64,000 nt of DNA from the NCBI RefSeq assembly GCF_008014675.1, contig NZ_VOXD01000001.1, positions 62,001 to 126,000 on the forward strand. Direction: 5' to 3'. The notes below the pieces were generated by a model that saw nothing but the letters and a program-made list of their open reading frames with translations, had not been told where the DNA came from and made no database searches. The translations under genes and the position numbers were made by a program. Origin of the DNA: Neolewinella aurantiaca (lineage in GTDB: Bacteria; Bacteroidota; Bacteroidia; Chitinophagales; Saprospiraceae). Positions within the stretch are counted from its first letter, which is position 1, and every line of letters begins with the position of its first letter. Of the stretch, positions 2,395-59,398 are shown in pieces.

Positions 2395-2414
2395 TTTGCA
2401 CCCGCGTCCGCGCC
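2395..2414 (+). repeat. Dispersed 20-bp motif, forward
   Basis: One mismatch to the consensus TTTGCACCTGCGTCCGCGCC that recurs across the window. It lies between two convergent genes. Confidence 0.8.
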
Positions 2415-2420
2415 AGACAA

Positions 2421-3755
2421 TCACACGTTGCCGGTATTGCGCAAAGCCATCACGAGATCGGCGTAAGCCTGCTGCCAGCCCTGCCATCCGTACTCTTCCG
2501 CAAAACTGGAATTGTGCCACAGTAACATGAAGTCGCCTCCGAAGGGGCGGACGGCACTGGCCAGGTTTGTCGTGTAGGTGACGGCAGCTTCCGGGCCCAG
2601 CCCGAGGTAGTTTTTCAGCGTAACGTCCATCGCCACGAAGGGGTGAACCGTAAGACCGGTTGCTTCTTCTTTTTCGAGATCGTACCAGAAAAACGGCAGG
2701 TTGGTACCGGCCCGCCAACCGGCTTCATCGGCGTACCCCATCGTGTAGTCGTGGGTGATTCCCGCGCTCCGCAGGTCGCGATAGGTCGCTGGCAGCCTGA
2801 ATCGTAAAAAATGCTGGCGGGAATGCCGAACGGCCCGCCCGGTAAGTTTGGCCAGCCTTTCAACTTCTGTACGTAGAATTTCCGGGCTGTCGCTCGCCCG
2901 GTAGCTGGGGTGAATACCAACATCGTTCGTTGATGATAGCTCCCTGATCAATGCCTGCTGCGCAGCAGGAAGCGGGTAGGGATTGGGGTCTCTTCGGTCG
3001 GTGTTATCGGCCAGGAGCCAAAACCAGATCGGGTTCAGTGCCGCTTCATCAGGGCCCGGGGGCAGGTGCAGGGCATGCAGAATAGCAAGGCTTTGGTAGG
3101 GATCGCGCTCCGGCGAAGAGGTGAACCTCTTCCAGGCGCGGGCGGGATGACCGGTCAGCAAATCACGAAAGCCCGCGGCTGCGCCGCGGACGCCACGGTG
3201 CTGCCAGGCCCAGAGGATGTCTATGTCGTAGCTCGGTCGAAAGCGCCAGGGGTGGACTTTGGTGGGGGGAAGCTCCGGGAAAACTGTCCGTAGCTTATGG
3301 TCCAGAACCGCCGCCCATTCCCGAACGACCGGTCGGTGCAGGTACCCGTTCGTCCTGGCGTGGCTCTCCGCTGCGGGAAACCTGTTGTGAGCATCGGCAG
3401 CGAATGGCTGGTATTCCTCGTAGCGCGAGAGGGCGTAAAAGCAGCAGGCCAGGTAATCTGGTATTCCGTCAACCAGAAAAAAAGCGGGAACTCCGTCCTT
3501 GGTGCTTACCCGCAAGTCGTTTGTTTCCGGTGCTCCTCCGTGCAGGATCGGGTGCGCCGGCAGGCGTAAGTAGGTTTCGTCTTCGAAATCCACGGAAATT
3601 GATACTTTCGCCCCGCTTCCGGCCTTCTTCCAGCGGTCCGGGTCGGTCATCAAACGGAGATCGTAGCCCAGGTCCCGGCTGAGTTCCTTCAGCACGTAGC
3701 GCAACCGTGGGTGGCGGTGTCTGCTGAAAACGGGGATGACAGTGGGGGAGGGCAT
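2421..3755 (-). CDS. Polysaccharide deacetylase-like protein (DUF7033 type)
   Basis: This 444-residue cytoplasmic-looking protein without signal peptide fits a Bacteroidota family annotated as polysaccharide deacetylase, with an N-terminal DUF7033-like region (residues about 1-130). It is followed by a catalytic-like domain starting near PSYDIDILWAW, where the YDID motif takes the place of the metal-binding Asp of carbohydrate esterase 4 enzymes. Later conserved pieces are VGIHPSYRAS and RQHFLRFRLP. These resemble NodB-fold motifs (HPS, RxHFL), but I cannot confirm activity. Members often occur near surface polysaccharide genes; none are adjacent here. It is convergent with bshB1 and divergent from the next gene. 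Confidence 0.75.
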   Translation of the reverse strand: MPSPTVIPVFSRHRHPRLRYVLKELSRDLGYDLRLMTDPDRWKKAGSGAKVSISVDFEDETYLRLPAHPILHGGAPETNDLRVSTKDGVPAFFLVDGIPDYLACCFYALSRYEEYQPFAADAHNRFPAAESHARTNGYLHRPVVREWAAVLDHKLRTVFPELPPTKVHPWRFRPSYDIDILWAWQHRGVRGAAAGFRDLLTGHPARAWKRFTSSPERDPYQSLAILHALHLPPGPDEAALNPIWFWLLADNTDRRDPNPYPLPAAQQALIRELSSTNDVGIHPSYRASDSPEILRTEVERLAKLTGRAVRHSRQHFLRFRLPATYRDLRSAGITHDYTMGYADEAGWRAGTNLPFFWYDLEKEEATGLTVHPFVAMDVTLKNYLGLGPEAAVTYTTNLASAVRPFGGDFMLLWHNSSFAEEYGWQGWQQAYADLVMALRNTGNV

Positions 3756-3963
3756 AACGCTAAGGTAGGGGAACTTCCAGTGTTTTTACTATGCCGTTGA
3801 TGTTTCAATTGCTGTGTATGGTTCCTCCTTCGGGGTGAATGACGGTTACTCTTCGTCAAATTCAATTCGATTGTGTGAAACTTAACCTGTTCCAAATGCA
3901 ATACTGAGCCGGCTGAAAACATTTAATTAGCTGCCGCCTTCTATAATCCCCAGTCAGAAACAC

Positions 3964-5948: not shown

Positions 5949-6710
5949 ATGTCAATCATAAAAATAAGTAACCTGCAAAAAGCCTACGGCTCAAAATCTG
6001 TACTGAGAGGTATAGACCTAAGTGTGGAAGCAGGCCAGATCATCGGTTACATCGGCCCTAACGGTGCGGGTAAGTCGACCACTATCCGCATCCTTGCTGG
6101 ATTGGACAAAAACTATACTGGTGATGTGGAAGTGCTGGGCTTTGACGTGAAGAAAGACCCAATGGAGGTCAAGCGGCGCATCGGGTATATCCCCGAAGCG
6201 GCCGAGATTTACGAGATGCTGACGCCGAAAGAATTCTACGAGCTTGTTGGTGGTCTTCAGGATTTACCGTGGGAAACCACCCAAAAGCGCGCCAGCCGCC
6301 TTCAGGAATACCTTGACCTGAAGTACAGCCCCGACCAGCGCATCGACACCTTCAGCAAGGGGATGAAACAAAAAGTGCTGCTCATCAGTGGCCTCTTGCA
6401 CGATCCCGACCTGATCTTCCTTGATGAACCCCTGGCTGGCCTCGATGCCAACTCCGTCATCCGGGTGAAGGATTTACTGCAACAGCTTACCGAACGTGGG
6501 AAGACCATTTTTTACAGCTCCCACATCATGGAAGTGGTGGAAAAGATCAGCGACCGCATCATCCTGCTCAACGACGGCAAGATCGCTGCCAACGGCACCT
6601 TTGCCGAAATCAACGCCCAGGCTCACAGCGGTAGCCTCGAGACCCTATTCTCTCAACTGACGGGCGGCTCCGCAGCCAGAACCGACTTTGACTTCACTGC
6701 TGATGAATAA
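5949..6710 (+). CDS. ABC transporter ATP-binding protein
   Basis: This 253-residue cytoplasmic ATPase has Walker A GPNGAGKST at residues 36-44, a signature FSKGMKQK, Walker B LIFLDEPLAGLD, and the H-loop YSSHIMEVV. The degenerate signature and the short C-terminal tail are typical of ABC-2 exporter ATPases (CcmA/NatA-like). The next gene, a large multi-spanning protein, overlaps it by 8 bp, so the two are almost surely translated together as one exporter. The substrate is unknown. It resembles GldA in overall organisation, but a better GldA candidate is encoded at 44021. Confidence 0.9.
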   Translation: MSIIKISNLQKAYGSKSVLRGIDLSVEAGQIIGYIGPNGAGKSTTIRILAGLDKNYTGDVEVLGFDVKKDPMEVKRRIGYIPEAAEIYEMLTPKEFYELVGGLQDLPWETTQKRASRLQEYLDLKYSPDQRIDTFSKGMKQKVLLISGLLHDPDLIFLDEPLAGLDANSVIRVKDLLQQLTERGKTIFYSSHIMEVVEKISDRIILLNDGKIAANGTFAEINAQAHSGSLETLFSQLTGGSAARTDFDFTADE

Positions 6711-8370
6711 GCTGTTCCTCTGGCTGGTAAGCCTGTTCAACCCCGTCTGGCGTAGTATCGGTGCCGATCCTAAAGCCATCTACCTCATACTAAAGGCCAA
6801 ACTCCTGATGGACGATCGGGGTGGCATGATGATGGGCCAGCGCCAGAAGCGCAAGAAGGGGATGGAGTATATGACTTTCATCTTCATCGGCATCTTCGGG
6901 TTGTGTTTGGTCGGGCTTTTTATGATTACGGAGCATTATGCGACTGCCGTCGGGTTAGGATTCAGTATGTGGGTTGCGTTCATTGGTATGATGCTGATTA
7001 CTGAAATGAGCGAAAACCTTTTCGATCAACGTGACCTCTACGTATTGCTCAGCCGACCAATCAACGATTTTACCCTGAGCATCAGCCGGATACTTCACAT
7101 TGCGGTGTTTGCCGGAAAATTTGGCCTCTGCCTTGGTTTGCCGACCCTGGTCTACCTCGCCGTTTTCGCCGGAGCCTGGCCCGCTTTCGTGTACTTTCTC
7201 CTCTCCATATTGACCATCGTTATCACCATGACGGGGACCCTTGTATTCTACCTGCTCCTGCTCCGTCATGTTGATTCAGCGAAGCTGAAGAAAATCGTTG
7301 GTTATTTTCAGATAGTGGCAACCTTCTTCTTTTTCATTGCCTACCAGTTGCCCAGCCTGATTGGCGACGTAAAGGTTCTGCAGAACATCGTAGTGGTGGG
7401 CAAACCGTTAGGGTTTACGTTTCCCGGGCTCTGGCTTGGTGGCTTGTACGAAGCGATGACAACAACGACGGCCAGTCCGTTGGCCTACGCACAGGGGCTT
7501 CTGGCCCTGATCGCCGCAGGTACAGGATTGTGGTTTTACATAAGGCAAAGCAGAGGCTACGCCGACCGTTTGCTGCAACTGCGCGTGGCAGGAGCAGAAA
7601 ACGCTGCTGAACCGCAAGGCACAACGAGCACTTCCGGTAGCAAATCTCCTGTCCGTGATTTTCTGGCGGGCTGGCTGACCCGGCCGAATCAGGAACGGGT
7701 GTCGTTCCGTTTTCACTGGAACGTGATGCTGCGGGATATGGGCTTCAAGCAGCGCACTTACCCTTCTTTGGTTTATCTGCCGGTCATCCTCGTTATCACC
7801 ATTTTCAGGGACGCATTTATGGGAGAGGAAGAATTTTCGTTGGGCGACGGAATGATGCTGATGCTGCTCTATTTTCTATTGTGGATATTGCTCATCCCTC
7901 TGGGCCAAACGAAGTACAGCGAAAATTACCGGTCAAGTTGGATATTTGAGGCAACGGCCAACCCATACCCCAACCGAATCTATTACGGCCAGTTCATGGC
8001 GGTTCTGGGCATGTTCTATCTCCCGATGGCCCTGCTGATTTACACCGCTGTTCTGATCTATTGGGGCCCTTCTCACTGGATCGACATCCTTCTGGCGATG
8101 GGCACTACGCTTCTATTTACCCTGGTCTATAACCAGACGGACAAGGACGCTCCTTTCTCCCGTTCGAAGGAAGACGCCAAATTCGGGAATATCGGACCTT
8201 TTTTACTGGTAGCCTTTCTGGGGAGTATCTTTGGTTTCGGGCACTGGGCGCTGCAACTTTTTCCTTACGTCCTGATGGCGGCTACAGTAGTGGTATGGTG
8301 TGTTTTGCTGGGTTGGATATGGTATTTGCGCAGAGATACAAACGGGGGCGCGGCCGCAGGTACATGGTGA
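6703..8370 (+). CDS. ABC-2 type permease, large
   Basis: This 555-residue protein begins at the ATG that overlaps the stop of the ATPase gene (ATGAATAA). An upstream TTG in frame would overlap further and is less likely. It has about 11-12 hydrophobic segments in two blocks, separated by a soluble linker (residues about 300-335, rich in Gly/Ser/Thr/Pro) and a cytoplasmic part beginning with RPNQERVSFRFHW. This two-block layout suggests a fused or unusually long permease rather than the common 6-helix ABC-2 subunit. It presumably forms a homodimer with the upstream ATPase. The substrate is unknown. The last codons coincide with a copy of the dispersed 20-bp motif. Confidence 0.82.
   Translation: MNKLFLWLVSLFNPVWRSIGADPKAIYLILKAKLLMDDRGGMMMGQRQKRKKGMEYMTFIFIGIFGLCLVGLFMITEHYATAVGLGFSMWVAFIGMMLITEMSENLFDQRDLYVLLSRPINDFTLSISRILHIAVFAGKFGLCLGLPTLVYLAVFAGAWPAFVYFLLSILTIVITMTGTLVFYLLLLRHVDSAKLKKIVGYFQIVATFFFFIAYQLPSLIGDVKVLQNIVVVGKPLGFTFPGLWLGGLYEAMTTTTASPLAYAQGLLALIAAGTGLWFYIRQSRGYADRLLQLRVAGAENAAEPQGTTSTSGSKSPVRDFLAGWLTRPNQERVSFRFHWNVMLRDMGFKQRTYPSLVYLPVILVITIFRDAFMGEEEFSLGDGMMLMLLYFLLWILLIPLGQTKYSENYRSSWIFEATANPYPNRIYYGQFMAVLGMFYLPMALLIYTAVLIYWGPSHWIDILLAMGTTLLFTLVYNQTDKDAPFSRSKEDAKFGNIGPFLLVAFLGSIFGFGHWALQLFPYVLMAATVVVWCVLLGWIWYLRRDTNGGAAAGTW
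8347..8366 (-). repeat. Dispersed 20-bp motif, reverse, in permease 3' end
   Basis: Four mismatches to the consensus. It encodes the Ala-Ala-Ala-Gly end of the permease. Confidence 0.55.
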
Positions 8371-8509: not shown

Positions 8510-10312
8510 ATGCGCTCACTACTTACCTTGCTTTTCATATCCGCACTTTGCACCTGCGCCCTCGCCCAGAAAACCATCAGCGGTTGCGTGGTCGGGGAGG
8601 ACAACGAACAACTTATTGGTGTATCAGTCTACGTCAATGGTTCTGCCGATGGGGCGGCGACGGGCCTAGACGGTTGCTTCTCCTTTGAGCAAAGAGGAGA
8701 TTCAGTCGCGTTGAAACTTACCTATGTTGGTTACGTGACACAGTACGCTGTTGCATACGCAAACAAGCCGCTGACGATTAAAATGAAACTTTCTCATGAC
8801 TTGCTTGACGAAGTTGTCGTCATTGGCTACGGTGAGTCCCGCAGAGAATCACCAAGTCGGAAGACAAGATCGGCCGCCGCGCCGTCGACGACCGCCGATT
8901 ACGCCCCCGTTGCCAGCCCGGATACCTACGAAGTGACTTACGAGCGGGTGGATGGTACATCCGACCTGGCCGCTGCGTCCACTCCCGATATTTCGGCCGG
9001 CCAGCTAACCGCCGGTGAAACCAATGACTTCGGCAAATGGGAACTCTGGACCGACATCAGCAAAGAAGACCTCTCCGAGTTTCGTGACATCTGGCAGTTT
9101 TACCCGGACAATCGTTACGCAACCCAACTCACTTTCCCGAACGGTCACCCTGCCGTTGACGTTCCGGTCAGGCTTGTCAACCGCTGGGGCCAAACTATTT
9201 GGTCGGCCCGTACCGATAACCGTGGCCGCGCCGAACTGTGGGCGGGCATGACCGGCGACAGCCTGACGCCCGCGTCGCAACTCACTCTTGTCGCCGAAGC
9301 AAGCGGTAAGACCTACTCCATTCCCGGAGCACAGTTGTTTCAGGATGGCCTTAACACCCTGGAATTGCCCCGGCAGTGCAATCAGCGCACTGAGGTCGAC
9401 ATCGCTTTCGTGGTAGATGCGACCGGAAGTATGGGCGACGAAATCCGCTACCTCAGCAGTGAACTTACCGACGTAATCAACCGCGCTCAGGCAAACCTCC
9501 CCGGCGCTGAGCTGAGAACCTCCGCCGTGTTTTACCGGGACAGTTCCGATGTCTACGTAACGATCCATTCCGACTTTACCGAAAAACCTGAGGCAACGGT
9601 TGGTTATGTCAAGTCGCAAGCACACGGTGGCGGCGGAGACCACCCCGAAGCGGTAGACGCTGCGCTCCAAACAGCGGTAGATTCGCTGGCGTGGCGCGAA
9701 GAAGCTGCCGCCCGTCTTCTGTTCCTGGTGCTCGACGCACCACCGCATCAGGATGAAACCAGTAGAAAAAGATTGCACGAGACCACTCGTCAGGCCGCAG
9801 AGAAGGGAATCCGTATCATTCCGGTCGTTTGTTCCGGTATGACCAAAGACGGAGAGTACCTCCTGCGCTCCGTTGCGCTGGCAACCAACGGAACCTACGT
9901 TTTTCTGACCGACGACAGCGGGATCGGTGGTAAACACCTGGCACCAACCACGGATAGTTACGAGGTTGAAAAGCTCAACGACCTGATGGTTCGCGTGATC
10001 GGTCAGTTCAGCGAGACCGAGTCCTGCGATGACCCCACCGACCTAAGTAGCCTCGAAGAAAACGTTCGTAAAAAAGGCGACTTGAGGCTAAAAGCTTTCC
10101 CTAACCCAACCCCGGGACCGGTAACGGTGAAGCTTCCGCGAAGCGAAGGATTATTGTCGGTTATCGATCTGAACGGTAAGTTGTTGCAGCAACTTGAAGT
10201 TACCGGCCGCCGACAAGAACTACAGCTGGGCGGCCTGGCGGCAGGTACTTATATACTAAGGTATGAGGACGGTGAAGAGAGTAGGGTAGTACGGATAGTA
10301 CTGACGCGCTAA
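8510..10312 (+). CDS. Secreted von Willebrand A protein with type IX sorting tail
   Basis: This 600-residue protein has five parts. The signal peptide ends in CTCALAQ. A carboxypeptidase-regulatory-like beta domain lies at about residues 20-95. A short segment LDEVVVIGYG is reminiscent of the start of a TonB-receptor plug. A linker and an Ig-like region (about 150-290) precede a von Willebrand A domain beginning VDIAFVVDATGSMGDE (about residues 298-313), whose metal site is D-x-T-G-S. The C-terminal 80 residues start FPNPTPGPVTVKL and contain GLAAGTYILR, a type A sorting domain for the type IX secretion system. It is therefore likely exported to the cell surface. The function is probably adhesion or binding; it stands alone. 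Confidence 0.85.
   Translation: MRSLLTLLFISALCTCALAQKTISGCVVGEDNEQLIGVSVYVNGSADGAATGLDGCFSFEQRGDSVALKLTYVGYVTQYAVAYANKPLTIKMKLSHDLLDEVVVIGYGESRRESPSRKTRSAAAPSTTADYAPVASPDTYEVTYERVDGTSDLAAASTPDISAGQLTAGETNDFGKWELWTDISKEDLSEFRDIWQFYPDNRYATQLTFPNGHPAVDVPVRLVNRWGQTIWSARTDNRGRAELWAGMTGDSLTPASQLTLVAEASGKTYSIPGAQLFQDGLNTLELPRQCNQRTEVDIAFVVDATGSMGDEIRYLSSELTDVINRAQANLPGAELRTSAVFYRDSSDVYVTIHSDFTEKPEATVGYVKSQAHGGGGDHPEAVDAALQTAVDSLAWREEAAARLLFLVLDAPPHQDETSRKRLHETTRQAAEKGIRIIPVVCSGMTKDGEYLLRSVALATNGTYVFLTDDSGIGGKHLAPTTDSYEVEKLNDLMVRVIGQFSETESCDDPTDLSSLEENVRKKGDLRLKAFPNPTPGPVTVKLPRSEGLLSVIDLNGKLLQQLEVTGRRQELQLGGLAAGTYILRYEDGEESRVVRIVLTR
8547..8566 (+). repeat. Dispersed 20-bp motif encoding a signal-peptide end
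   Basis: Two mismatches to the consensus. It encodes the LCTCALA end of the signal peptide, in the same phase as the copy at 13858. Confidence 0.75.
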
Positions 10313-13820: not shown

Positions 13821-15605
13821 ATGCTACGCTTCTTTGCCTTGCTCCTCCTGACTTTCTTTTGCACCTGCGTCCGCGCCCAGATAAGCCAGACCGGTGAACT
13901 CAAAAAATGGCACAAGGTTACCCTCACCATAGATGGCCCCGAAGCAGAAGAAGAGGGCCGTTTGAATCCTTTTTTGCACTACCGCCTCAACGTCACTTTT
14001 CGTCACGATTCGGCGACCTACGTAGTGCCAGGCTACTTCGCCGCCGATGGCAACGCTGCCGAGACCAGCGCCACCAAAGGAAACAAATGGCGTGTACATT
14101 TTGCACCGGACCAAACGGGAGTCTGGAGCTACGAAGTCAGCTTCCGCGCCGGGTCCAACGCTGCCGTCTCCGAACTGCCAAATTACGGTGAGCCCGTACG
14201 GCCACTCGACGGCATGCGAGGCAAGCTCACCATTGCTCCAACCGATAAAAAAGGACCTGATCTGCGCGGTAAAGGGCGCTTGCTCTTTCACGGCCGCCAG
14301 TATCCCGTTTGGGCGGAAACCGGAGAGGTTTTCCTCAAAGCCGGAGCCGATGCACCCGAAAATCTGCTCTCTTACCGCTCCTTCGATGGTACATTTCATG
14401 ACGATGGCTACGGCGATAATTGGATCAAAGACTGGGCTCCACACCTGAAGGATTGGCAAGCCGGTGACCCCACCTGGCAGGATGGAAAGGGCAAGGAAAT
14501 TATCGGTGCCGTAAACTACCTGGCGAGCAAGGGAATGAACGCCTTCTCCTTCCTTACCCTGAACATTGCAGGAGACGATAAAAACGTTTTCCCTTACATT
14601 AATTACCACGACTACCAGCGCATGGACGTAAGCAAACTCGCGCAATGGGAAATTCTTTTCGAGCACGCCTCGCGAAAGGGAATGTTTCTGCATTTCAAAA
14701 TGGCTGAAGTAGAAAACCAGTCATTGCTCGACAATGGAGACCTTGGCCCACAGCGTAAACTTTACTACCGCGAACTCATGGCCCGCTTTGGTCATCACCT
14801 CGCCCTGAACTGGAACACAGGCGAAGAGAACGGTCGCTGGAACAACAATTATCCACCCGACTGGCAAACGACCACCCAGCGCCTGGCCATGGCCCGCTAT
14901 TTTTACGAGAACGATCCTTACCGTCACCACGTGGTAATCCATAACGGCCAGAGTTTTTACGACCTGCTCGGTCGTGAGAGCAAGTATTCGGGCTTATCCC
15001 TCCAGACCAACCGGGCTGATTTCGCGAACGTTTACCCCGCCATCAGGCGCTGGCTTCGCCTCGCCCAAGAAAACAACGTGAACTGGGCTGTTGCCATCGA
15101 TGAACCCGGAGATGCGCAGCACAGTCTTGTTCCCGACGCGGATGATCCTGACCACAATCTCGCCCGGCAGAACGCACTGTGGGGTGCCTTCATGGCCGGT
15201 GCCTGGGGCATTGAGTGGTACTTCGGGTACAAACACGAGCATTCTGACCTGAGCTGCGAAGACTGGCGCAGCCGCGACGCGATGTGGGACCAGAGCCGGT
15301 ATGCACTCGAGTTCTTCCGGCAGGCCAACCTTCCTCTCGCGGAGATGGTGCCCGCTAATGACCTCACACCGGATGGGAACGACTGGGTGCTGGCTGGTGG
15401 CGGTAAATATGTCGTTTTTATGAAGCAAGGACCTAAGACAGCCACGACTTTGAAGATTGCTGACGGGAATTACAAAATTCAATGGTACAATCCCCGGAAG
15501 GGCGAATTTGTAGTGCGTGGGAGTCAATCTGTTACGGGCGGAGAGATGACCGTTACTGCTCCTCCCCGGGAAGTTGAAAAGGACTGGGTTTTGCTGGTAG
15601 AATAG
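13821..15605 (+). CDS. Secreted DUF5060 glycoside-hydrolase-like protein
   Basis: This 594-residue protein has a signal peptide ending CTCVRAQ. An N-terminal beta domain (about residues 25-135; GELKKWHKVTLTIDGPEAEE) matches DUF5060. A central region resembles the (beta/alpha)8 fold of DUF4038/GH140-like proteins (GMNAFSFLTLNIAGDDKNVF; LNWNTGEENGRWN; NWAVAIDEPGDA). The C-terminus resembles the putative collagen-binding domain found on such proteins (GGKYVVFMKQG to EVEKDWVLLVE). These proteins are thought to act on complex polysaccharides, but the substrate is unknown here. No sorting tail is seen, so it is probably periplasmic. The signal peptide codons include an exact copy of the dispersed 20-bp motif. 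Confidence 0.82.
   Translation: MLRFFALLLLTFFCTCVRAQISQTGELKKWHKVTLTIDGPEAEEEGRLNPFLHYRLNVTFRHDSATYVVPGYFAADGNAAETSATKGNKWRVHFAPDQTGVWSYEVSFRAGSNAAVSELPNYGEPVRPLDGMRGKLTIAPTDKKGPDLRGKGRLLFHGRQYPVWAETGEVFLKAGADAPENLLSYRSFDGTFHDDGYGDNWIKDWAPHLKDWQAGDPTWQDGKGKEIIGAVNYLASKGMNAFSFLTLNIAGDDKNVFPYINYHDYQRMDVSKLAQWEILFEHASRKGMFLHFKMAEVENQSLLDNGDLGPQRKLYYRELMARFGHHLALNWNTGEENGRWNNNYPPDWQTTTQRLAMARYFYENDPYRHHVVIHNGQSFYDLLGRESKYSGLSLQTNRADFANVYPAIRRWLRLAQENNVNWAVAIDEPGDAQHSLVPDADDPDHNLARQNALWGAFMAGAWGIEWYFGYKHEHSDLSCEDWRSRDAMWDQSRYALEFFRQANLPLAEMVPANDLTPDGNDWVLAGGGKYVVFMKQGPKTATTLKIADGNYKIQWYNPRKGEFVVRGSQSVTGGEMTVTAPPREVEKDWVLLVE
13858..13877 (+). repeat. Dispersed 20-bp motif, exact copy
   Basis: Exact TTTGCACCTGCGTCCGCGCC. 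It encodes the last residues of the signal peptide of the DUF5060 protein. Confidence 0.9.
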
Positions 15606-15999: not shown

Positions 16000-16548
16000 T
16001 TAATCAACGATTAGTTTCAGCTTTGCACGTTGATACCCTGCGGATTTGAAAGATTTCACCTCCGGGATTTCTTCGCCCTCATGAGGCTGGTTGCCGGTAG
16101 TGCGGACTGCTTTTTCACTTCCGCTTTGGATCGAATACAGCAGGTGGTCGCCCCGGTGTTCAACGTTTGAAACGAGGTAGGTGCCCATGACGGTAAAAAC
16201 ACTCTGGTAGACATTGCCGAGGTAATAACCATCGAGAAGGATGGTGTTCTGTTCGTCGCAGACCCAATGATGGGGCCCGTCGGGGCCGCGGGTGATCAGG
16301 TAGTCCCGTTTGCCGGCTTCTTTATCTTTGCCGTAGATGATGGTATACGTGTAGGTGCTGTCGTTGACAGGCAAAATGTGTAATTCCATCGGGACGCTTT
16401 GCGCGAAACCTTTGGCGTTGTAAATTTCGAGCGTACCGCCCCATTTTCCGGTGAAATCATCAGGGAAAGCTGGCAACGCTTCGGGCTGAGCACCCAGAAC
16501 AGGAGCGAATACAAACAAAAGACAGAAGAGGCGGAGACGCAGGTGCAT
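16000..16548 (-). CDS. Secreted protein of unknown function
   Basis: This 182-residue protein has a signal peptide (MHLRLRLFCLLFVFAPVLG, cleavage after GAQ). The mature part is beta-rich, with FTGKWGGTLEIYNAKG at the start. This resembles the lipocalin-like or calycin-type pattern of small periplasmic proteins that begin with a GxW motif. It contains an early GPDGPHHWVCDEQNTILLDG region. There is no lipobox or sorting tail. I cannot assign a function. The gene converges with the 100-residue protein gene, 23 bp apart. Its first codons overlap a diverged copy of the dispersed 20-bp motif. Confidence 0.7.
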   Translation of the reverse strand: MHLRLRLFCLLFVFAPVLGAQPEALPAFPDDFTGKWGGTLEIYNAKGFAQSVPMELHILPVNDSTYTYTIIYGKDKEAGKRDYLITRGPDGPHHWVCDEQNTILLDGYYLGNVYQSVFTVMGTYLVSNVEHRGDHLLYSIQSGSEKAVRTTGNQPHEGEEIPEVKSFKSAGYQRAKLKLIVD

Positions 16549-16813
16549 GGTACGTTTTTTAGAAAAGCCAAGTTAGGCCATAGCACAGTGTAACCTAAAT
16601 TTCATCGCCTTTTTCGCGGCGTCTTTTGCGGCCTGACTGCGTTAGGAGAATCCTCATTTAGCTACAGCTAAACTCCGGTTTTCCGCCTTGTCAGCCTCCA
16701 AAACCCTCCAGCGCAAAAGATCCACAAACTTAGGTTACACCGTACTGGTTATCGCCGTTTCTAACCGGAAACAATGCGCTGGCGGGGCAAACGAAGTTTG
16801 CCTGAACCTGGAC

Positions 16814-17395: not shown

Positions 17396-17415
17396 TTTGC
17401 ACCTGCGTCAGCGCC
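17396..17415 (+). repeat. Dispersed 20-bp motif, forward
   Basis: One mismatch to the consensus. It lies between the lipoprotein gene and gldC. Confidence 0.8.
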
Positions 17416-18120: not shown

Positions 18121-18231
18121 GTGTGTATCACGAGATGCACGGATCCCCCTCTCCCCCGGCCCCTCTCCTCGGGAGAGGGGAGACGTGACAAGCGGCAAGT
18201 TCGTGATAGTAGTGCATCTCGCGATACACAC
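18121..18231. mobile_element. 111-bp miniature element, copy 1
   Basis: This 111-bp element has 20-bp terminal inverted repeats (GTGTGTATCACGAGATGCAC and its near complement, one mismatch). It is flanked by the 9-bp direct repeat GGTGGAAAA at 18112-18120 and 18232-18240. The interior has a strong hairpin around CTCTCCTCGGGAGAG. A second, inverted copy at 61633-61743 has its own different 9-bp duplication. The element encodes nothing and must depend on a transposase elsewhere. A 9-bp duplication occurs in several IS families, so I do not name one. Confidence 0.88.
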
Positions 18232-19352: not shown

Positions 19353-20189
19353 ATGCGAACTGCTACTACTGCAAATACTACTCCTGTTATTACCAATAAA
19401 GTAATCCTGTCGCTCATCATTCTGGCCACTTACTTTGCGGGGCAGTTCGGCTCCGGCTGGCTGTCTCCTCTATATCGCCATTTGCTCGCTGATCAGAGCG
19501 ACGCGACCCGTAACGTAATTTGGAACGTCCTCTATTACGGTCTGATTCCGCTCATCGCAACGGTGCTGCTGTTCGGTTTCAGGAATACACCTTCCGCGCT
19601 TGGGCTGGACAAGGGCCTGGCTAAAGGCTTCAAAGTCGCTTTTCTCGTCACCTTACCAATGCTTATCGGATACGCTGTTTGTTCGGGGTTCACGATCAAC
19701 ATCAGTGCTAACAATTTCTACTACGGTTCGATCTCGGCGCCCATTTTTGAAGAACTGTTCTTCCGGGCTTTCCTTTTTGGTTTGCTGTACCGCTACGCAG
19801 GGTGGGGGATGGTGCCCGCAACGATCCTCGATGCATTTGTTTTTGGCGTTATCCACATCAGCCAGGGAGATGACTTTGCCTCTTCGGCTTCCGTTTTTGC
19901 CGTTACCTCGGCGGGGGCAGTCTGGTTGAGCTGGATGTACAAAGAGTGGGACTGGAACCTGTGGTTGGTCGTATTCCTGCACGCCTTCATGAACCTGTAC
20001 TGGATGTTGTTCGATATGGCCGACAACGCTGCTGGTGGCCTTTGGGCCAACGTATTCCGGGTAGCGACGATCGTAGCTTGCGTTGTCTGGACGAATAGAC
20101 GTATAAAACAGGCGCGGACGCAGGTGCAGGAATCGGAAAAGGCACACGACGTGCTCGCCCCGAAGGCATTTGCCGGAGCAATTTCGTAG
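19353..20189 (+). CDS. CPBP-family intramembrane protease
   Basis: This 278-residue protein has about eight hydrophobic segments and the CPBP (Abi/CAAX-like) motifs: EELFFRAF with the paired glutamates at residues about 133-134, FGVIHIS (His about 166) and FLHAFMN (His about 210). These form the metal site in the membrane. CPBP proteins of bacteria process or handle peptides, and some are linked to bacteriocin immunity; the substrate is unknown. A LytTR regulator and its probable binding repeats lie directly upstream, so expression is likely controlled by that regulator. The charged C-terminal tail contains a copy of the dispersed motif. Confidence 0.85.
   Translation: MRTATTANTTPVITNKVILSLIILATYFAGQFGSGWLSPLYRHLLADQSDATRNVIWNVLYYGLIPLIATVLLFGFRNTPSALGLDKGLAKGFKVAFLVTLPMLIGYAVCSGFTINISANNFYYGSISAPIFEELFFRAFLFGLLYRYAGWGMVPATILDAFVFGVIHISQGDDFASSASVFAVTSAGAVWLSWMYKEWDWNLWLVVFLHAFMNLYWMLFDMADNAAGGLWANVFRVATIVACVVWTNRRIKQARTQVQESEKAHDVLAPKAFAGAIS
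20111..20130 (-). repeat. Dispersed 20-bp motif, reverse, in CPBP gene
   Basis: Two mismatches, both at the outer end. It encodes QARTQVQ in the protein tail. Confidence 0.75.
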
Positions 20190-22747: not shown

Positions 22748-22767
22748 GGCGCGGACGCAGGCGCAAC
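22748..22767 (-). repeat. Dispersed 20-bp motif, reverse
   Basis: Two mismatches. It lies upstream of the pncA promoter. Confidence 0.72.
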
Positions 22768-24360: not shown

Positions 24361-24528
24361 GCCGTAGGGGAAATGCTTTGGTGTCTCCGCAGGCATTAAC
24401 GTTTGCGGCAACGGACTGTAACACGGAGGGAAAGATGTTGGTCACCTCTTTTGACCGGTCAGGCACCAGGGGGGCTGTGAACTGGTTTTCCGGAGCCAAC
24501 AGGGTAGGGTGAGAGCCACCAACCATAT

Positions 24529-24548
24529 TTGCACCTGCGTCCGCGCCC
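24529..24548 (+). repeat. Dispersed 20-bp motif, exact copy
   Basis: Exact TTTGCACCTGCGTCCGCGCC in the 505-bp gap before the TPR gene. Nothing else besides the terminator is seen in that gap. Confidence 0.9.
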
Positions 24549-27834: not shown

Positions 27835-28854
27835 TCAACTAACACCTTGCAAAACCTCGATGACCCGGTCCACCATCTCGTCGGTTACTCCGAGGTGGGT
27901 GGTAAACCGTACCATTTGCGGACCGAAAGCAACGGCCTGGATGCCGTGTTCGGCGAGGGTCTCCAGAAAGTCGGCAGCCATGAGTTCGCCGGCAAGGTGA
28001 AAGATACAGATGTTGGTTTCCGTCTTTTCGACAGCGGCGACGAAGGGTAGGGGAGCGAGGGCTTCGGCCAGACGACGGGCGCGGGCGTTGTCGTCGGCCA
28101 GGCGTTCGACGTGATGGTCGAGGGCGTAGATTCCGGCAGCAGCGAGGTAGCCGGCCTGCCGCATACCTCCGCCGATGACTTTGCGGTAGCGGCGTGCGCG
28201 GTCGATCAACTCCTGCGGACCGAGCAGCAGGCTACCCACCGGAGCACCGAGACCCTTGCTCAGACAGATGCTGATGGTGTCGAAGAGGTTGCCCCATTCA
28301 GTGGGGCTCTCTTTTGTTTCTACCAGTGCGTTGAACAGGCGGGCACCGTCGAGGTGTACTGCTAATCCGGAGGAACGGGCCTCCTGCACCAGCGTCCGCG
28401 CCTCATCGATAGTATAGATGGATCCTCCGCCTTTATTGCAGGTATTCTCGATCACGAGCAGTTTGCTGATGGGCAACCAGTCGTAACGCGGCTTAACGGC
28501 TGCGGCTACCTGGCCGGGCAGGATCTTGCCGCGTTCACCTTTAATGAGATTGAGACTCACGCTCGACAGCATACTGTACACGCCGCCTTCGTACTGATAA
28601 ATATGACTCTTCTCTTCAGCGATAACTTCGTCGAGGGCCACAGTATGGCATTTGATGGCGAGTTGGTTCGTCATCGTACCTGAAGGGCAAAAAAGAGCAG
28701 CCTCCATTCCGAACCGCTCTGCGGCCACGGTTTCCAGTTGGTTAACGGTCGGGTCCTGGCGGAAAACATCGTCACCAACTTCAGCGGAGAACATTGCTTT
28801 CAGCATTGCCCCGGTGGGCTTGGTAGCGGTATCGGAGGTAAGGTTTATCTGCAT
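27835..28854 (-). CDS. ltaE: Low-specificity L-threonine aldolase
   Basis: This 339-residue PLP enzyme cleaves L-threonine or allo-threonine to glycine and acetaldehyde. It starts MQINLTSDTATKPTGAM, the typical N-terminus. HLDGARLFNA contributes the Asp that contacts the cofactor, and CLSKGLGAPVGS contains the PLP lysine near residue 200. Length is normal. It lies downstream of msrA on the same strand with a 16-bp gap, suggesting an operon. It converges with the EAD-like gene, 18 bp away. Confidence 0.93.
   Translation of the reverse strand: MQINLTSDTATKPTGAMLKAMFSAEVGDDVFRQDPTVNQLETVAAERFGMEAALFCPSGTMTNQLAIKCHTVALDEVIAEEKSHIYQYEGGVYSMLSSVSLNLIKGERGKILPGQVAAAVKPRYDWLPISKLLVIENTCNKGGGSIYTIDEARTLVQEARSSGLAVHLDGARLFNALVETKESPTEWGNLFDTISICLSKGLGAPVGSLLLGPQELIDRARRYRKVIGGGMRQAGYLAAAGIYALDHHVERLADDNARARRLAEALAPLPFVAAVEKTETNICIFHLAGELMAADFLETLAEHGIQAVAFGPQMVRFTTHLGVTDEMVDRVIEVLQGVS
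28383..28402 (+). repeat. Dispersed 20-bp motif inside ltaE
   Basis: Three mismatches to the consensus; it reads antisense to the gene. Confidence 0.6.
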
Positions 28855-29557: not shown

Positions 29558-29577
29558 GGCGCGGCCGCAGGTGCATT
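29558..29577 (-). repeat. Dispersed 20-bp motif, reverse
   Basis: Three mismatches. It lies in the divergent region between msrA and the next gene, just before a -7 box. Confidence 0.68.
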
Positions 29578-30626: not shown

Positions 30627-30730
30627 GGCGCGGCTGCGGGTGCAAAGAAAGTTTTGCTGACGCAGAAAGCGCGGCCAGAAAGACGGCGGGTCAGTATCCT
30701 TCAACCGTATTTTGCACCTGCGTGCCCGCC
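30627..30730. repeat. Inverted pair of the dispersed 20-bp motif
   Basis: A reverse copy at 30627-30646 (three mismatches) and a forward copy at 30711-30730 (two mismatches) face each other across 64 bp, forming an inverted repeat after the methyltransferase-like gene. The same layout, with 61 bp between, is seen at 53229-53329. Confidence 0.75.
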
Positions 30731-33484: not shown

Positions 33485-33548
33485 TTTGCCAACAGCAACC
33501 TGTATTCATATTTATAACATCCCACGGACTATCTCAAGCTTAATACCA

Positions 33549-39527: not shown

Positions 39528-39590
39528 AGACCGTTAGCAGTCAGGAGAAGGCATTTTGCCGGTATTCTGACCGCTAACGGTCTTTTTTTG
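39528..39590. terminator. Intrinsic terminator of the porP-adhesin unit
   Basis: A 17-bp stem (AGACCGTTAGCAGTCAG/CTGACCGCTAACGGTCT, one mismatch) has a 22-nt loop and is followed by TTTTTTTG. Confidence 0.88.
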
Positions 39591-39628
39591 CTCGGTAGCA
39601 GGTGCAAAGTAAGGACGGGGGTAACGGG

Positions 39629-40330: not shown

Positions 40331-40495
40331 GAGGTTTCAGTACTTGGTGCTTTTTGGAACGGTCTGTCGGGGAACAGAAGTACGTCGGTAAATTCCGGAG
40401 GCGGCATTATTTTGGCCGGAGAGCGCGGCCGTGGAAACCTTCCCTGCACCTGCTGCCGAGCCTCATGGTCTTGCCGATCGTCCGAAGGGGCACGC

Positions 40496-41540: not shown

Positions 41541-43190
41541 TTACCTCCAGGCTTTGTAAGCGTTGATGAGCCCGTTGGTGCTGGAGTCATGCGCCGCTAC
41601 TTTCGCATCATCTTTCAACTCGGGTAGGATTGCTTTAGCGAGTTGCTTACCCAGTTCCACGCCCCACTGATCGAAGCTGTAGATATTCCATACGATGCCC
41701 TGTACGAAAATTTTGTGCTCGTACATCGCGATCAGCTGACCGAGCACATAGGGCGTTATCTTGCGTACGAGGATGGAGTTGGTCGGGCGGTTTCCGTCAA
41801 ATACCTTGAAGGGTACGAGCTCGGCAATTTCCGCGTCGGATTTTCCGGCGGCCTTAAGCTCTTCGGTTACCTGGCGCGCGGTTTTACCGTTCATAAGGGC
41901 TTCCGTTTGAGCGAAGAAGTTACTCAGCAGGATGGAGTGATGGTCTCCGATCGGATTATGCGAGGACGCAGGTGCAATGAAGTCACACGGGATGAGTCGT
42001 GTTCCCTGGTGGATAAGCTGGTAAAAAGCGTGCTGGCCGTTGGTGCCGGGCTCACCCCAGATGATGGGACCGGTTTGGTAGTCAACGGGGTTCCCGTTGC
42101 GGTCTACGCTCTTTCCGTTAGATTCCATATTGCCCTGCTGGAAGTAAGCGGGGAAGCGGTGCAGGTACTGATCGTAAGGAAGTATGGCTTCGGTTTCTGC
42201 GCCGAAGAAGTTGGTGTACCATACGCCGATGAGGGCTAGTTTGGCAGGGATGTTTTCCTCAAGTGGTGCATGGCGGAAGTGCTCGTCCATGCTGTACATC
42301 CCGTCGAGGAGCTCAATGAAGTGATCGAAGCCGACAGTAAGGGCGATGCTCATGCCGATGGCACTGGATAGGGAGTAGCGTCCGCCGACCCAGTCCCAGA
42401 AGCCGAAGATGTTCTCTTCGGCGATCCCGAATTCTTTTACGCCTTCGATGTTGGTAGACAGTGCGGCAAAGTGCAGCGCGACGCTTTCTTCGCTTCCGCC
42501 GTGATCATAGAACCACTGGCGGGCACTACGGGCGTTGGTCATTGTTTCCTGGGTGGTGAAAGTCTTCGATGCCACAAGGAACAGCGTTGTTTCAGGGTCT
42601 ACCTTCTTGAGTACTTCGGCCAGGTGAGTACCATCGATGTTGGAAACGAAGTAAACCTCCCGACCCTCGATCCAGTAAGGTTTGAGGGCTTCGGTGACCA
42701 TCACCGGGCCGAGGTCCGAACCACCGATGCCGATGTTTACAACCTGCGTCAGTTCCTTCCCGCTGTAACCGGTCATCTTCCCGGAGTGAATTGCTTCGCA
42801 GAAATGCCGCATGCGCGTGAGCACATCGTGCACCTGAGGCATCACATCCTTACCGTCTACCATAATTTGCCCCTTACCCCGGTTACGAAGCGCAACGTGC
42901 AGTACCGAACGGCTCTCGGTGCCGTTGATCATTGCACCGGAGAACATCTTTTCGGTGGCTTCCTTTACGCCGCAGTCTTCGGCAAGACGGTAAAGGATGT
43001 CCAGTGTTTCCTGAGTGATAATGTTCTTGGAATAGTCGAGGAGGATGTCCTCGAAAGTCTGACTGTAATTCTTGAAACGCTCAGGATCCTGAGCGAAGAG
43101 GTCTTTTAAATGGCGCCCTTCCATTTCGTGAGCGTGCATTTCGAGTTCCTTCCAGGCGAGGGTAGAGGTGGGGTCTGTGTTTGGTAGCAT
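41541..43190 (-). CDS. pgi: Glucose-6-phosphate isomerase
   Basis: This 549-residue enzyme interconverts glucose-6-phosphate and fructose-6-phosphate. Signature segments are present: [33 protein letters not shown] with the catalytic Glu and His, and [13 protein letters not shown]. Length is that of the long bacterial Pgi. It supports glycolysis and links to xylA and pckA in this window. It is monocistronic. A copy of the dispersed 20-bp motif lies in the codons for the conserved IAPASSHN segment. The 830 bp beyond its start hold its promoter region and a separate plus-strand transcript. Confidence 0.96.
41959..41978 (-). repeat. Dispersed 20-bp motif inside pgi
   Basis: Three mismatches. It lies in a conserved coding segment (FIAPASSH). 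Confidence 0.6.
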
Positions 43191-47931: not shown

Positions 47932-48673
47932 CCTGATATACCTCCTTCTCGCCCTTACTGCTTTCAGCTGCCGGGGCCCACTTTATTCTCCGACGGTTCA
48001 ACCCCGTTATTATAAAGTTACCGATAAAATTGAAGCAAACGAGGCGGGGCCGCAGGTGCAAAATATGGTTGAGACCATCGCTCCGTACAAAGCCCAGCTC
48101 GACGCGAAAATGAACCGCGTTCTCGCTACCGTGGAAACACCTTTGGTCAAAGGTGCTCCCGAGAGCACCCTGGGCAACTGGTCAGCCGACCTCCTTGCGG
48201 CTGCAGCCTCGGCCAATTACCCAAACACAAACATTGCTTTTGCGACGATGAACCAGGGCGGCATCCGCGTGTCCGGGATCGGAGCCGGCCCGCTGATCGT
48301 CTCCGAAATCTACGAACTAATGCCCTTCGACAACACCCTGGTGTTGATGGAGCTCAGCGGAAAAGAACTTCGCGAATTCATCAGTCACATCGTCAACTCC
48401 GGCGGATGGCCGGTAAGCAGCGGGCTTGCGGTGCACAGGAAGGCTAGTGGCCTAACCATCCGCATTCAAGGGCGCCCTCTTGCCGATGAAGAGCGGTATA
48501 CTATTGCCCTGCCTGATTATGTCGCAGGAGGCGGAAGCAACTCCACCATGCTTAAAGACAAAGAGCGGACCGACTCCGGCTTGCTCATCCGTGACCTCCT
48601 CATCGAATACGCAGGTAAAATCTCCGAACCCATCAACGTAGTAGTCGAAGGACGGCGGATGAGACTGGAATAG
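47924..48673 (+). CDS. 5'-nucleotidase C-terminal domain lipoprotein
   Basis: This 249-residue protein begins MRNLIYLLLALTAFSC, a lipoprotein signal, so it is membrane-anchored outside the cytoplasm. The rest matches the C-terminal substrate-binding domain of UshA-like 5'-nucleotidases: APESTLGNWSADLLAAAA, NQGGIRVSGIGAGPL, YELMPFDNTLVLMELSGKEL and DYVAGGGSNSTML. The metallophosphatase half is encoded by the next gene, so the usual two-domain enzyme is split in two. A copy of the dispersed 20-bp motif lies in the codons for AGPQVQ. Confidence 0.88.
   Translation: MRNLIYLLLALTAFSCRGPLYSPTVQPRYYKVTDKIEANEAGPQVQNMVETIAPYKAQLDAKMNRVLATVETPLVKGAPESTLGNWSADLLAAAASANYPNTNIAFATMNQGGIRVSGIGAGPLIVSEIYELMPFDNTLVLMELSGKELREFISHIVNSGGWPVSSGLAVHRKASGLTIRIQGRPLADEERYTIALPDYVAGGGSNSTMLKDKERTDSGLLIRDLLIEYAGKISEPINVVVEGRRMRLE
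48043..48062 (-). repeat. Dispersed 20-bp motif in nucleotidase-domain gene
   Basis: Two mismatches to the consensus. Confidence 0.7.
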
Positions 48674-51477: not shown

Positions 51478-51497
51478 CCTGCACCCGCGTTCGCGCC
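51478..51497 (+). repeat. Dispersed 20-bp motif, diverged copy
   Basis: Four mismatches. It lies between convergent dnaA and the serine hydrolase gene. Confidence 0.5.
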
Positions 51498-51503
51498 TCC
51501 TTT

Positions 51504-53228: not shown

Positions 53229-53329
53229 GGCGCGGCCGCAGGTGCAAGGGACGCAGCAACGAAGGGTTGATCCCTGATCTTTTGCTCCTTCTGTTCCTGT
53301 AAACCCTGCTTTGCACCGGCGGCCGCGCC
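53229..53329. repeat. Inverted pair of the dispersed 20-bp motif
   Basis: A reverse copy at 53229-53248 and a forward copy at 53310-53329 (two mismatches each) face each other across 61 bp. They can pair over 18 of 20 positions. They lie between the two minus-strand genes, where they might also work as a transcript end. Confidence 0.8.
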
Positions 53330-53340
53330 CGGAAAAATGG

Positions 53341-54512: not shown

Positions 54513-54514
54513 GG

Positions 54515-57060: not shown

Positions 57061-57152
57061 TTTGCTAATGTAATCAGGGTTACATAAGCTTTTTGTGGCT
57101 AAGCAGACCTTTGTCGTAGTGCTGCTAAACGTGCATCATCAACTTCCCAACT

Positions 57153-57269: not shown

Positions 57270-57275
57270 GTAATT

Positions 57276-57482: not shown

Positions 57483-57513
57483 TCTCCGGTTATTACTGCA
57501 GACTAGTTAAAAT

Positions 57514-57557
57514 GCGCCACCCCAATCCGAACGGATGGGGTGGCGCGTGGTTTTTTT
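57514..57557 (+). terminator. Intrinsic terminator after DUF2892 gene
   Basis: A stem GCGCCACCCCAATCCG/CGGATGGGGTGGCGC is followed by a seven-T run. Confidence 0.88.
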
Positions 57558-57599
57558 ACGGTTATTTATGACTTTAGTGGCTGTGCCGGTCCAACCAAC

Positions 57600-57619
57600 A
57601 TTGCACCGGCGTTCGCGCC
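57600..57619 (+). repeat. Dispersed 20-bp motif, forward
   Basis: Three mismatches. It lies just beyond the stop of the 3-hydroxybutyryl-CoA dehydrogenase gene. Confidence 0.62.
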
Positions 57620-57623
57620 ACGT

Positions 57624-58508
57624 TTACCGGAAACTTCCGCTAACGACGAGTTCTTTTCCTCCACCGGAGTAATCATAGAACCCTTCTCCGGATTTACGAC
57701 CGAGCTTACCGGCCATGACCATATTGACCAGTAGCGGGGAAGGTTGGTGGTGAGCTCGTCCGAAACCGTCCTTCATTACGTTGAGGATGGCCAGGCAGGT
57801 GTCGAGGCCGATGTAGTCGGCCAGTTGCAGCGGACCCATCGGGTGCGCCATACCGAGTTTCATTACGGTGTCGATTTCTTCGACACCAGCCACGCCTTCA
57901 AATAGGGTAGTAATGGCCTCGTTGATCATTGGCATCAGAATGCGGTTGGCTACGAAGCCGGGGTAATCGTTCACCTCGGTAGGGGTTTTGCCGAGTTCGC
58001 GGCTCAGGTCCATCACCAGTTTTGTGGTGGCATCGTCGGTGGCGTACCCACGGATGACTTCCACAAGTTTCATGACGGGAACGGGGTTCATGAAGTGCAT
58101 CCCGATTACCTTTTCGGGGCGCTTGGTCGCCGCTGCTATTTTGGTGATACTAATGCTGGAGGTATTGGTGGCAAGAGGCGCGGCCGCAGGTGCAAGGGAG
58201 TCTAACTGAGCAAAAATTTTGAGTTTGAGGTCTACATTCTCCGTAGCGGCTTCGATGACGAGGTCGGCTTTACCAACTCCTTCGGCAAGATCGGTGTAGC
58301 CAGCAATGCGGGCGAGCGTTGCGTTCTTGTCGTCTTCGGTGATCTTTTCTTTTCTCACAATCCGGTCCAGACTGGATGCAATGGCGGCAATGCCGCGGTC
58401 TATGGCGGCCTGATTGATGTCGTTCAGGCTAACATTATGACCGGCAGCGGCGAAGACCTGGGCGATGCCTGCTCCCATTTGTCCGGCGCCTATTACTGAT
58501 ATATTCAT
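57624..58508 (-). CDS. 3-hydroxybutyryl-CoA dehydrogenase
   Basis: This 294-residue cytoplasmic enzyme oxidises 3-hydroxyacyl-CoA with NAD(P). It begins MNISVIGAGQMGAGIAQVFA, with the Rossmann GxGxxG at residues 7-12. GMHFMNPVPVMKLVEVI contains the catalytic His, and ANRILMPMINEAI and GPLQLADYIGLDTCL follow. Length is that of the stand-alone enzyme (Hbd/PaaH type). A copy of the dispersed motif lies in the codons for APAAAPLA. It stands alone. Confidence 0.94.
   Translation of the reverse strand: MNISVIGAGQMGAGIAQVFAAAGHNVSLNDINQAAIDRGIAAIASSLDRIVRKEKITEDDKNATLARIAGYTDLAEGVGKADLVIEAATENVDLKLKIFAQLDSLAPAAAPLATNTSSISITKIAAATKRPEKVIGMHFMNPVPVMKLVEVIRGYATDDATTKLVMDLSRELGKTPTEVNDYPGFVANRILMPMINEAITTLFEGVAGVEEIDTVMKLGMAHPMGPLQLADYIGLDTCLAILNVMKDGFGRAHHQPSPLLVNMVMAGKLGRKSGEGFYDYSGGGKELVVSGSFR
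58177..58196 (-). repeat. Dispersed 20-bp motif inside dehydrogenase gene
   Basis: Two mismatches. It encodes LAPAAAPL on the minus strand, where the family usually varies. Confidence 0.72.
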
Positions 58509-58671
58509 TGTGGTGGTGGTTTGGTTAGTTGAACTGCAAGGTCCGAAAAAAAATGGCCATCCGGTAAAGGGTGATGGAGTTTCGCAGAGGAGTTGGCTTG
58601 TAAGTCTGTTCGCCGGAGGTAAAAGCGGCCGTATTGGCGGGGGAGTTTTACCCGGGCTTGAAGACTGCCGG

Positions 58672-59205
58672 TTACGAAATCCACTTCACCTCCTCGATAC
58701 CTCCCCGCTGCGCCAGGTACCGGCCCAGCACAAAGAAGTAATCACTAAGGCGGTTGAGGTAAACGACGATGCTACGATCCATTTCCACTACTTCGGCGAG
58801 CTCGACGGTGCGGCGCTCAGCGCGGCGGCAGACGGTCCGGCACAGGTGTGCGTAGCTGAGTACGGGGGCTCCTCCGGGCAGGATGAAGTGTGTCATTTTA
58901 GGCAGCGACTCGTTCATGGCGTCCATTCGTGCTTCGAGGTTGGTGGCGGCGTCTTCGGGTAGTTGGTACGCCTGGCCCGGCCGGTCATCGGCCATTGCGG
59001 CCCCAAGGGCAAAAAGGTGGTGCTGCTGGGCCAGGAGTTCTGCGCTGATGGCGTCGTCTTCAACGTGGTCGCGGAGCAGACCAACGAAAGCGTTGAGCTC
59101 GTCTACTGTTCCGTAAGCTTCCACCCGCGGATGCGCTTTACTGAGGCGTTTTCCTGAGTATAGTCCTGTCTGGCCTTCATCGCCGGTTTTGGTATAGATT
59201 TTCAT
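58672..59205 (-). CDS. Cob(I)alamin adenosyltransferase, PduO type
   Basis: This 177-residue enzyme makes adenosylcobalamin from cob(I)alamin and ATP. It begins MKIYTKTGDEGQTGLYSGKR; the ATP-binding segment is GDEGQTGLYSGKR, and YGTVDELNAFVGLLRD and CRTVCRRAERRTVEL with NRLSDYFFVLGRYLA follow. Length is normal for PduO. The start is the ATG at 59205; a longer frame upstream starts with residues unlike the family. Nearby cobalamin genes are not seen. Confidence 0.94.
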   Translation of the reverse strand: MKIYTKTGDEGQTGLYSGKRLSKAHPRVEAYGTVDELNAFVGLLRDHVEDDAISAELLAQQHHLFALGAAMADDRPGQAYQLPEDAATNLEARMDAMNESLPKMTHFILPGGAPVLSYAHLCRTVCRRAERRTVELAEVVEMDRSIVVYLNRLSDYFFVLGRYLAQRGGIEEVKWIS

Positions 59206-59378
59206 GCAGGTGTAACGTGATTTTCTCCGCTTGGGTTGCGGTGTCAACTCCCTCGTTTGGTGGTTTGCTCTGGTCTGGTTTTCAGCCGGACGGGGAAACT
59301 GTATGAGCTTTAGATAGTGTATTTTCGGGGATAAGTCGGATCGCAGGTTTTTCTGTATCGCTGCTCATTCAACCTTCT

Positions 59379-59398
59379 TCTGCACCTGCGTTTGCGCA
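59379..59398 (+). repeat. Dispersed 20-bp motif, diverged copy
   Basis: Four mismatches. It lies in the 318-bp divergent region between the adenosyltransferase gene and pckA; besides the motif and a promoter box, I see nothing there. Confidence 0.5.

Follow-up and report, generated by a model that had tools for sequence, protein, structure and literature searches.

A long, dialected motif with alternating orientation is abundant in one genus of Bacteroidota

What is the 20-bp motif that recurs through a 64,000-nucleotide stretch of the Neolewinella aurantiaca genome (hereafter the window), and what might read it? An earlier note made from the letters of the window had listed 21 copies and likened them to DNA uptake sequences or other architecture motifs. 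We found that all 21 positions hold a copy, 17 at up to three mismatches and four (8347, 16530, 51478 and 59379) at four mismatches (Table 1). Both exact 20-mers described there are real, but the second starts at 24528 and not at 24529. Three further, weaker matches at up to five mismatches lie at 3053, 39589 and 40443. The motif is beyond chance in the window, as had been claimed, with 0 matches in 100 dinucleotide shuffles, and an Rfam search of the window returned no family reaching its gathering score.

Table 1. Copies of the motif in the window (G008 is a relative of the source genome)
Feature	Position	Strand	Mismatches and context
Motif copy	2395..2414	+	1 mismatch; between ORFs
Motif copy	8347..8366	-	4 mismatches; 3' end of ORF 6688-8370
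Motif copy	8547..8566	+	2 mismatches; just within start of ORF 8510-10312
Motif copy, exact	13858..13877	+	Just within start of ORF 13821-15605
Motif copy	16530..16549	-	4 mismatches; 5' end of ORF 16000-16548 (-)
Motif copy	17396..17415	+	1 mismatch; intergenic; G008 intergenic counterpart without a site
Motif copy	20111..20130	-	2 mismatches
Motif copy	22748..22767	-	2 mismatches; aligns with a copy in G008
Motif copy, exact	24528..24547	+	Between ORFs
Motif copy	28383..28402	+	3 mismatches; within ORF 27835-28854 (-)
Motif copy	29558..29577	-	3 mismatches; intergenic; aligns with a copy in G008
Motif copy	30627..30646	-	3 mismatches; left half of close '-+' pair
Motif copy	30711..30730	+	2 mismatches; right half of close '-+' pair
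Extra motif copy, absent from the earlier note	39589..39608	-	4 mismatches
Extra weak motif copy, absent from the earlier note	40443..40462	+	5 mismatches
Motif copy	41959..41978	-	3 mismatches; within glucose-6-phosphate isomerase gene
Motif copy	48043..48062	-	2 mismatches; in gene; gapless and common to G008
Motif copy	51478..51497	+	4 mismatches; intergenic; aligns with a copy in G008
Motif copy	53229..53248	-	2 mismatches; left half of close '-+' pair; G008 without counterpart
Motif copy	53310..53329	+	2 mismatches; right half of close '-+' pair; one unaligned + site in this gap of G008
Motif copy	57600..57619	+	3 mismatches; between ORFs
Motif copy	58177..58196	-	2 mismatches; within ORF 57624-58508 (-)
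Motif copy	59379..59398	+	4 mismatches; between ORFs

Markers of Bacteroidota type were present, namely a GldF match above the cut-off and a T9SS sorting domain. ORF 8510-10312, which carries a motif copy near its start, combines a SusC-like N-terminal stretch with a T9SS sorting domain, and the longest site-free gap of the window holds a motif-free ORF of 2006 residues (33486-39506).

The motif reaches far past the window, and the observation is confirmed at the scale of the genome and the genus. Across the whole assembly of the source genome (G000, 6.0 Mb), the 18-base core TGCACCTGCGTCCGCGCC at up to two mismatches gave 669 forward and 681 reverse matches, whereas the same core reversed without complementing gave 0 forward and 0 reverse. 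The total of 1,350 is far above expectation, copies lie on many contigs rather than on one, and the balance of orientations noticed in the window holds genome-wide. A weight matrix placed 154 sites in 459.5 kb of G000, one per 3.0 kb, in line with the density of about one per 3 kb given before, and 0 sites in an order-2 Markov resample; extrapolation gives about 2,000 copies per genome. Among 60 genomes searched (G000 included), all 21 members of the genus hold core matches, from 4 to 1,522 per genome, while 8 of the 39 genomes outside the genus hold one or two matches, so that high motif counts are limited to one genus. We recognised no description of such a motif in Bacteroidota in the portions of the literature at hand (PMC1939737 and PMC8459023 among it, otherwise the starts of abstracts).

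An alignment of 142 sites revealed that the motif is longer than 20 bp. It is roughly 28 letters long. The aligned sequence leads from a pyrimidine tract (pyrimidine-rich from -19 to -13) through AA(A/C)C (-10 to -7), a C (-3) and (T/C)T to TGCACCTGCG[T/G]CCGCGCC and an A-rich tail (+21 to +24). The sub-type with GCGGCCGC in the centre that had been suggested turned out to be mainly a position where T and G vary freely (65 T, 62 G, 16 C and 11 A among 154 sites), but a weak sub-type is possible; G at this position goes with C two bases further on (p = 2.7e-5, uncorrected for the 45 columns). The site looks bipartite, as the length of the spacer from the CACCTGCG half to the GCGCC half is not constant but varies within a few bases. 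Its information content is about 32 bits against the 12.5 required for locating the sites, with matrices scored on the same sequence from which they were built.

Other members of the genus carry the motif as dialects. Searching de novo, without a prior motif and with shuffled controls that gave 0 to 2 sites, we found GGCACCCGCGACCGCGCC in G019, TTTTACCTGCGCTCCGCCGCCAAAA in G001, TCCCGCGCTCCGGCGCC in G007, GCTCCCGCGTNCCCGCC in G004 and TTTGGCTAACAAAGTAGCAATG in G011, and an apparent dialect, judged by eye, in G014 (CACCTGCG[G/T]CAGCGCC). The matrices for G004, G007 and G013 are poorer, and no clear motif emerged from that for G013. Matrices of the G000 and G019 types find each other's sites, and so do those of the G001 and G007 types, with hardly any overlap between the two groups; G002, G006, G015 and G018 seemingly hold both groups, with few sites. 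When every matrix was run against every sample, the G011 type was nearly exclusive, with 42 sites in G011, 1 in G019 and 0 elsewhere. We take the G011 motif to belong to the same system as that of G000 since density and spacing agree; the letters do not carry this. Six further genera of the family (G021, G023, G025, G028, G033 and G035), sampled at 20 to 100 kb each with low power in the 20-kb samples, yielded no similar motif, and other repeated words were present in the G025 sample. A separate tandem array was seen in G001 (L130, 3700-5550), with units of about 93 bp and the palindrome GGAGCTCC.

Copies occur in genes and in gaps, as the window had suggested. With genes called by a purpose-made scorer, genes contain 70 of the 154 G000 sites and gaps 83, with 1 on an edge, in sequence that is 84% coding. 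One of the six frame/orientation combinations was never used among the 70 in-gene sites, and the peptides encoded there include GADAGA, ARTQVQ, APASAP and CTCVRAQ. We compared in-gene copies with orthologs at 45% identity or more in 134 comparisons, which share genes and hence are not independent, and set aside 26 further cases outside the alignment. Gapless alignments made up 95 of the 134 (65 against a copy-free ortholog and 30 against an ortholog with a site); the remainder comprised 18 with small gaps, 12 with a deletion and 9 with an insertion of at least five residues in the copy-bearer. For the copy in the glucose-6-phosphate isomerase gene, eight orthologs are gapless at that place, and three of these also score as sites. 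Among the 35 orthologous gaps examined, a G000 site occurs in 6, a site of the relative in 5 and both in 4; in three of them (22748, 29558 and 51478) the two copies are aligned between diverged flanks. With in-gene copies mostly gapless and aligned copies persisting between diverged flanks, most copies thus come about by substitution, and they can be retained; the motif is mostly not an inserted repeat.

A clear orientation bias relative to genes was not seen among the 154 sites: in gaps between tandem genes, 26 sites have the same orientation as the genes and 21 the opposite, and within genes the numbers are 32 and 38. An RNA function is disfavoured by this, and a transcription terminator does not fit either, given also the share of copies in genes. 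Sites in gaps lie nearer the gene that their 3' end faces in G000 (60 of 86) and G019 (40 of 56), but not in G011 (6 of 17). We also considered a strand bias by replichore, as two G019 contigs seemed all-forward, but the sampled stretches were mixed; likewise, a KOPS-like strand skew within a replichore was not found, with 57 + and 59 - sites in G019 and mixed 20-kb samples along contigs.

What is new here is the arrangement of the copies, whose neighbours alternate in orientation and which avoid others of the same orientation below about 2.5 kb. In three contiguous pieces of G000, 116 neighbours were opposite and 35 the same (n = 151, p = 2.4e-11), and the counts were 86 and 35 with gaps below 1 kb left out and 92 and 31 by plain string match. 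G019 gave 76 opposite to 29 same, or 48 to 27 with gaps below 1 kb left out, which is weak (p = 0.02). G011 (26 to 12), G001 (16 to 5) and G004 (16 to 5) have smaller sets, in which alternation was not significant once gaps below 1 kb were left out, and G007 does not follow the rule (7 opposite, 8 same). Within about 2.5 kb, G000 had 14 same-strand pairs against 61 expected, with corresponding values of 7 against 34 in G019, 3 against 14 in G011, 0 against 4.4 in G001 and 3 against 6 in G004; in G007 they were not depleted (4 seen, 3.4 expected). Unlike same-strand pairs, pairs of opposite orientation were not depleted in G000 or G019, and in G000 we counted 28 '+-' pairs against 32 expected and 41 '-+' pairs against 32. 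Below 200 bp, 13 of the 14 G000 pairs are '-+', which an upstream footprint would explain.

The overall spacing of G000 copies is mildly even (CV 0.79), with most copies single and about 3 kb apart and a density of about one per 6 kb on each strand; for the other genomes, gaps were measured in pieces of 20 kb or less, which lowers the CV. Short-read assembly could hardly hide direct repeats alone, since 28 bp is shorter than the words normally used and the effect on inverted copies would be the same. We applied the same counts to two known motifs. Uptake cores in 313 kb of Aggregatibacter segnis had 102 opposite and 95 same neighbours (73 and 90 without gaps below 250 bp), same-strand CVs of 1.05 and 0.98, and a depletion of same-strand pairs only up to about 520 bp (12 pairs against 31.7 expected). 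Chi in 350 kb of Escherichia coli had 45 opposite and 52 same neighbours, with gap CVs of 1.00 on the + strand and 1.37 on the - strand.

Phage contigs carry the motif as well. The exact 19-mer was found in 16 IMG/VR stretches (L246-L261), of which 13 hold at least two matrix sites scoring at least 20. Over 145.8 kb they contain 37 host-type sites, the 17 exact matches used for selection and 20 more, in a set that was picked for holding an exact copy, leaves motif-free phages outside the count and includes several near-identical stretches, mainly in two groups. A PHROGs scan of ten proteins from five stretches returned matches that included tape measure, tail fibre, terminase and helicase, and among another ten proteins, two (L247 and L248) gave a match to phage integrase. 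When viral contigs were scanned for the G001, G011 and G019 dialects, 34 of 35 stretches had a single matrix site or none, and only L288 had two.

Looking for machinery, as the earlier note had advised for com and pil genes, gave a divided answer: ComEC (PF03772) is present in 21 of 21 genus genomes, but a PilT/PilB-type ATPase (TIGR01420, the sole pilus family searched) was matched in 0 of 21. The same model matched 13 of 14 control genomes, 5 of them above the cut-off, and the pilus motor is rare in relatives too, with 6 weak matches in 60 genomes and none above the cut-off. ComEC also occurs in 16 of 19 other genomes, and the RecB/AddB-type nuclease domain PDDEXK_1 (PF12705) is not specific, being found in the 21 genus genomes and all 24 others (45 of 45). 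Y1 transposases, with one to seven genes per genome, were found in 20 of 21 genus genomes; the exception is G018, an assembly of 880 contigs in which the gene could be missed and in which the core matches 1,046 times. At five of ten Y1 loci (each about 3.3 kb long), one of four matrices tried scores a site at 20 or more, which is not above the general density. None of these four candidates names the reader, given that genomes outside the genus have ComEC and the nuclease just as often and that relatives, too, rarely have the pilus motor.

Our best reading, which we put forward tentatively and with less than even confidence, is that the motif is a genus-specific, dialected and polar signpost for self, or for a stop or switch, that is met by a DNA-translocating machine. 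What the data show is the motif itself, its dialects, in-gene copies without gaps, the orientation rule in G000 and G019 and the presence of copies on phage contigs; a polar mode of reading, a mover, a reader protein and a function are what we infer. The site comprises approximately TTGCACCTGCG, a short spacer and CCGCGCC, with the pyrimidine tract and AAAC upstream and the A-rich flank downstream, and its copies arise mostly through point substitution and retention, not insertion. It would be read on DNA, not RNA, in one orientation. Each strand holds its own spaced set, the two strands being otherwise nearly independent. A machine moving along DNA would respond only to the first correctly oriented site that it meets; a second site in the same direction close by would be redundant and lost, while an opposite site would serve traffic from the other side. 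Such a response predicts both the same-strand repulsion and the independence of the strands. On the other hand, it predicts neither the spread of dialects as such nor the excess of close '-+' pairs. The likeliest job would be either to signal self, or a stop or switch, on the chromosome to a helicase-nuclease that processes DNA ends, like Chi but far longer, or to act as a polar barrier for a loop extruder.

Chi sequences, of 5-8 bases, are polar DNA-level signals that are useful in both directions, and phages can profit from carrying them. The motif would resemble the Chi of RecBCD/AddAB as a proposed polar DNA-level signal that is also phage-borne, but it is long where Chi is short, and E. 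coli Chi, the best-known signal of the polar sort, has no per-strand spacing in 350 kb, so that a Chi-like role alone does not predict the spacing. CTCF sites at animal loop anchors offer an analogy, being polar and forming close outward-facing pairs, but for convergent copies of the motif no distance was strongly preferred in G000 or G019. That the motif belongs to an undescribed class of chromosome signals, which would be long, dialected, polar, phage-borne, arranged in two separately spaced strand sets and read by a translocating machine to mark or organise self DNA, is a possibility that we consider less likely than not.

A signal for DNA uptake, as first suggested, would have an outer-membrane receptor bind the motif and ComEC import one strand, with biased uptake accumulating copies and dialects separating species. 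To our knowledge, the families with genome-wide dialected uptake motifs number only two, and both take up DNA by means of pili. Like the USS of Pasteurellaceae and the DUS of Neisseriaceae, the motif has more than 1,000 copies on both strands, in genes and in gaps, in dialects and alongside ComEC, and its mostly gapless in-gene sites suit this origin too; dialects of the Neisseriaceae DUS are named in the title of PMC3630211. The motif is, however, longer than these signals and bipartite, and the absence of a match to a pilus ATPase in the genus counts against uptake. In favour of uptake is Riemerella, also of the Bacteroidota: according to the consulted part of PMC8459023, its transformation requires ComEC, DprA, ComF and RecA together with four proteins that lack homologues among known machines, and the list does not include a pilus gene. 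Uptake signals of A. segnis share the same-strand depletion at short range, but they do not alternate. An uptake drive would predict the dialects and the origin by substitution, yet it would offer no clear reason for repulsion that is confined to one strand. The comparison with uptake sequences thus stands for copy number, strands, substitution origin, dialects and ComEC, and fails for the motor and the arrangement; an architecture motif or another polar signal at the DNA level fits at least as well. We regard uptake as possible, though less probable than not, and place the moving-machine reading slightly ahead of it.

The remaining explanations are weaker. Non-polar binding by an abundant nucleoid-associated protein, with sites retained for chromosome compaction, would account for the genome-wide and mildly even distribution and for the sites kept at some orthologous gaps, but non-polar binding does not predict spacing limited to copies of one orientation, and 32 bits are far above the need, which makes it rather improbable. 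We regard it as improbable, too, that the same-strand spacing is a by-product of direct repeats deleting the intervening DNA and being purged while inverted ones are not. Only same-orientation pairs are depleted, as this would require, and A. segnis shows a short-range form of the effect, but there it ends near 520 bp, and spontaneous deletion between repeats of 20-28 bp is too rare for selection to see over 2.5 kb. Least probable is that the motif is a REP/RAYT-type element, short and mobile, which the Y1 transposases move: their presence in nearly all genus genomes, the many copies and the close inverted pairs would agree with it, but the in-gene copies are numerous and mostly gapless against orthologs with few insertions, most copies are single, and the Y1 genes are few and were not found in the fragmented G018 assembly.

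A dialected motif is present in Bacteroidota where the PilT/PilB-type motor was not found, and its arrangement follows a rule that the tested uptake and Chi motifs do not show. Either way, something new would result: an uptake system whose specificity is polar, or a polar signal of the chromosome. The dialects offer a direct route to a coevolving reader protein, and any iterated motif can be tested cheaply by the same strand-by-strand spacing statistic.

Two other repeats were met in the window. A stretch of about 166 bp (16581-16750) recurs in dozens of places in the relative G003 at about 82% identity and is an interspersed repeat family separate from the motif. Some 40 bp within 18147-18198, which differ from the motif, recur in some ten places in the relative G008 at 82-90% identity.
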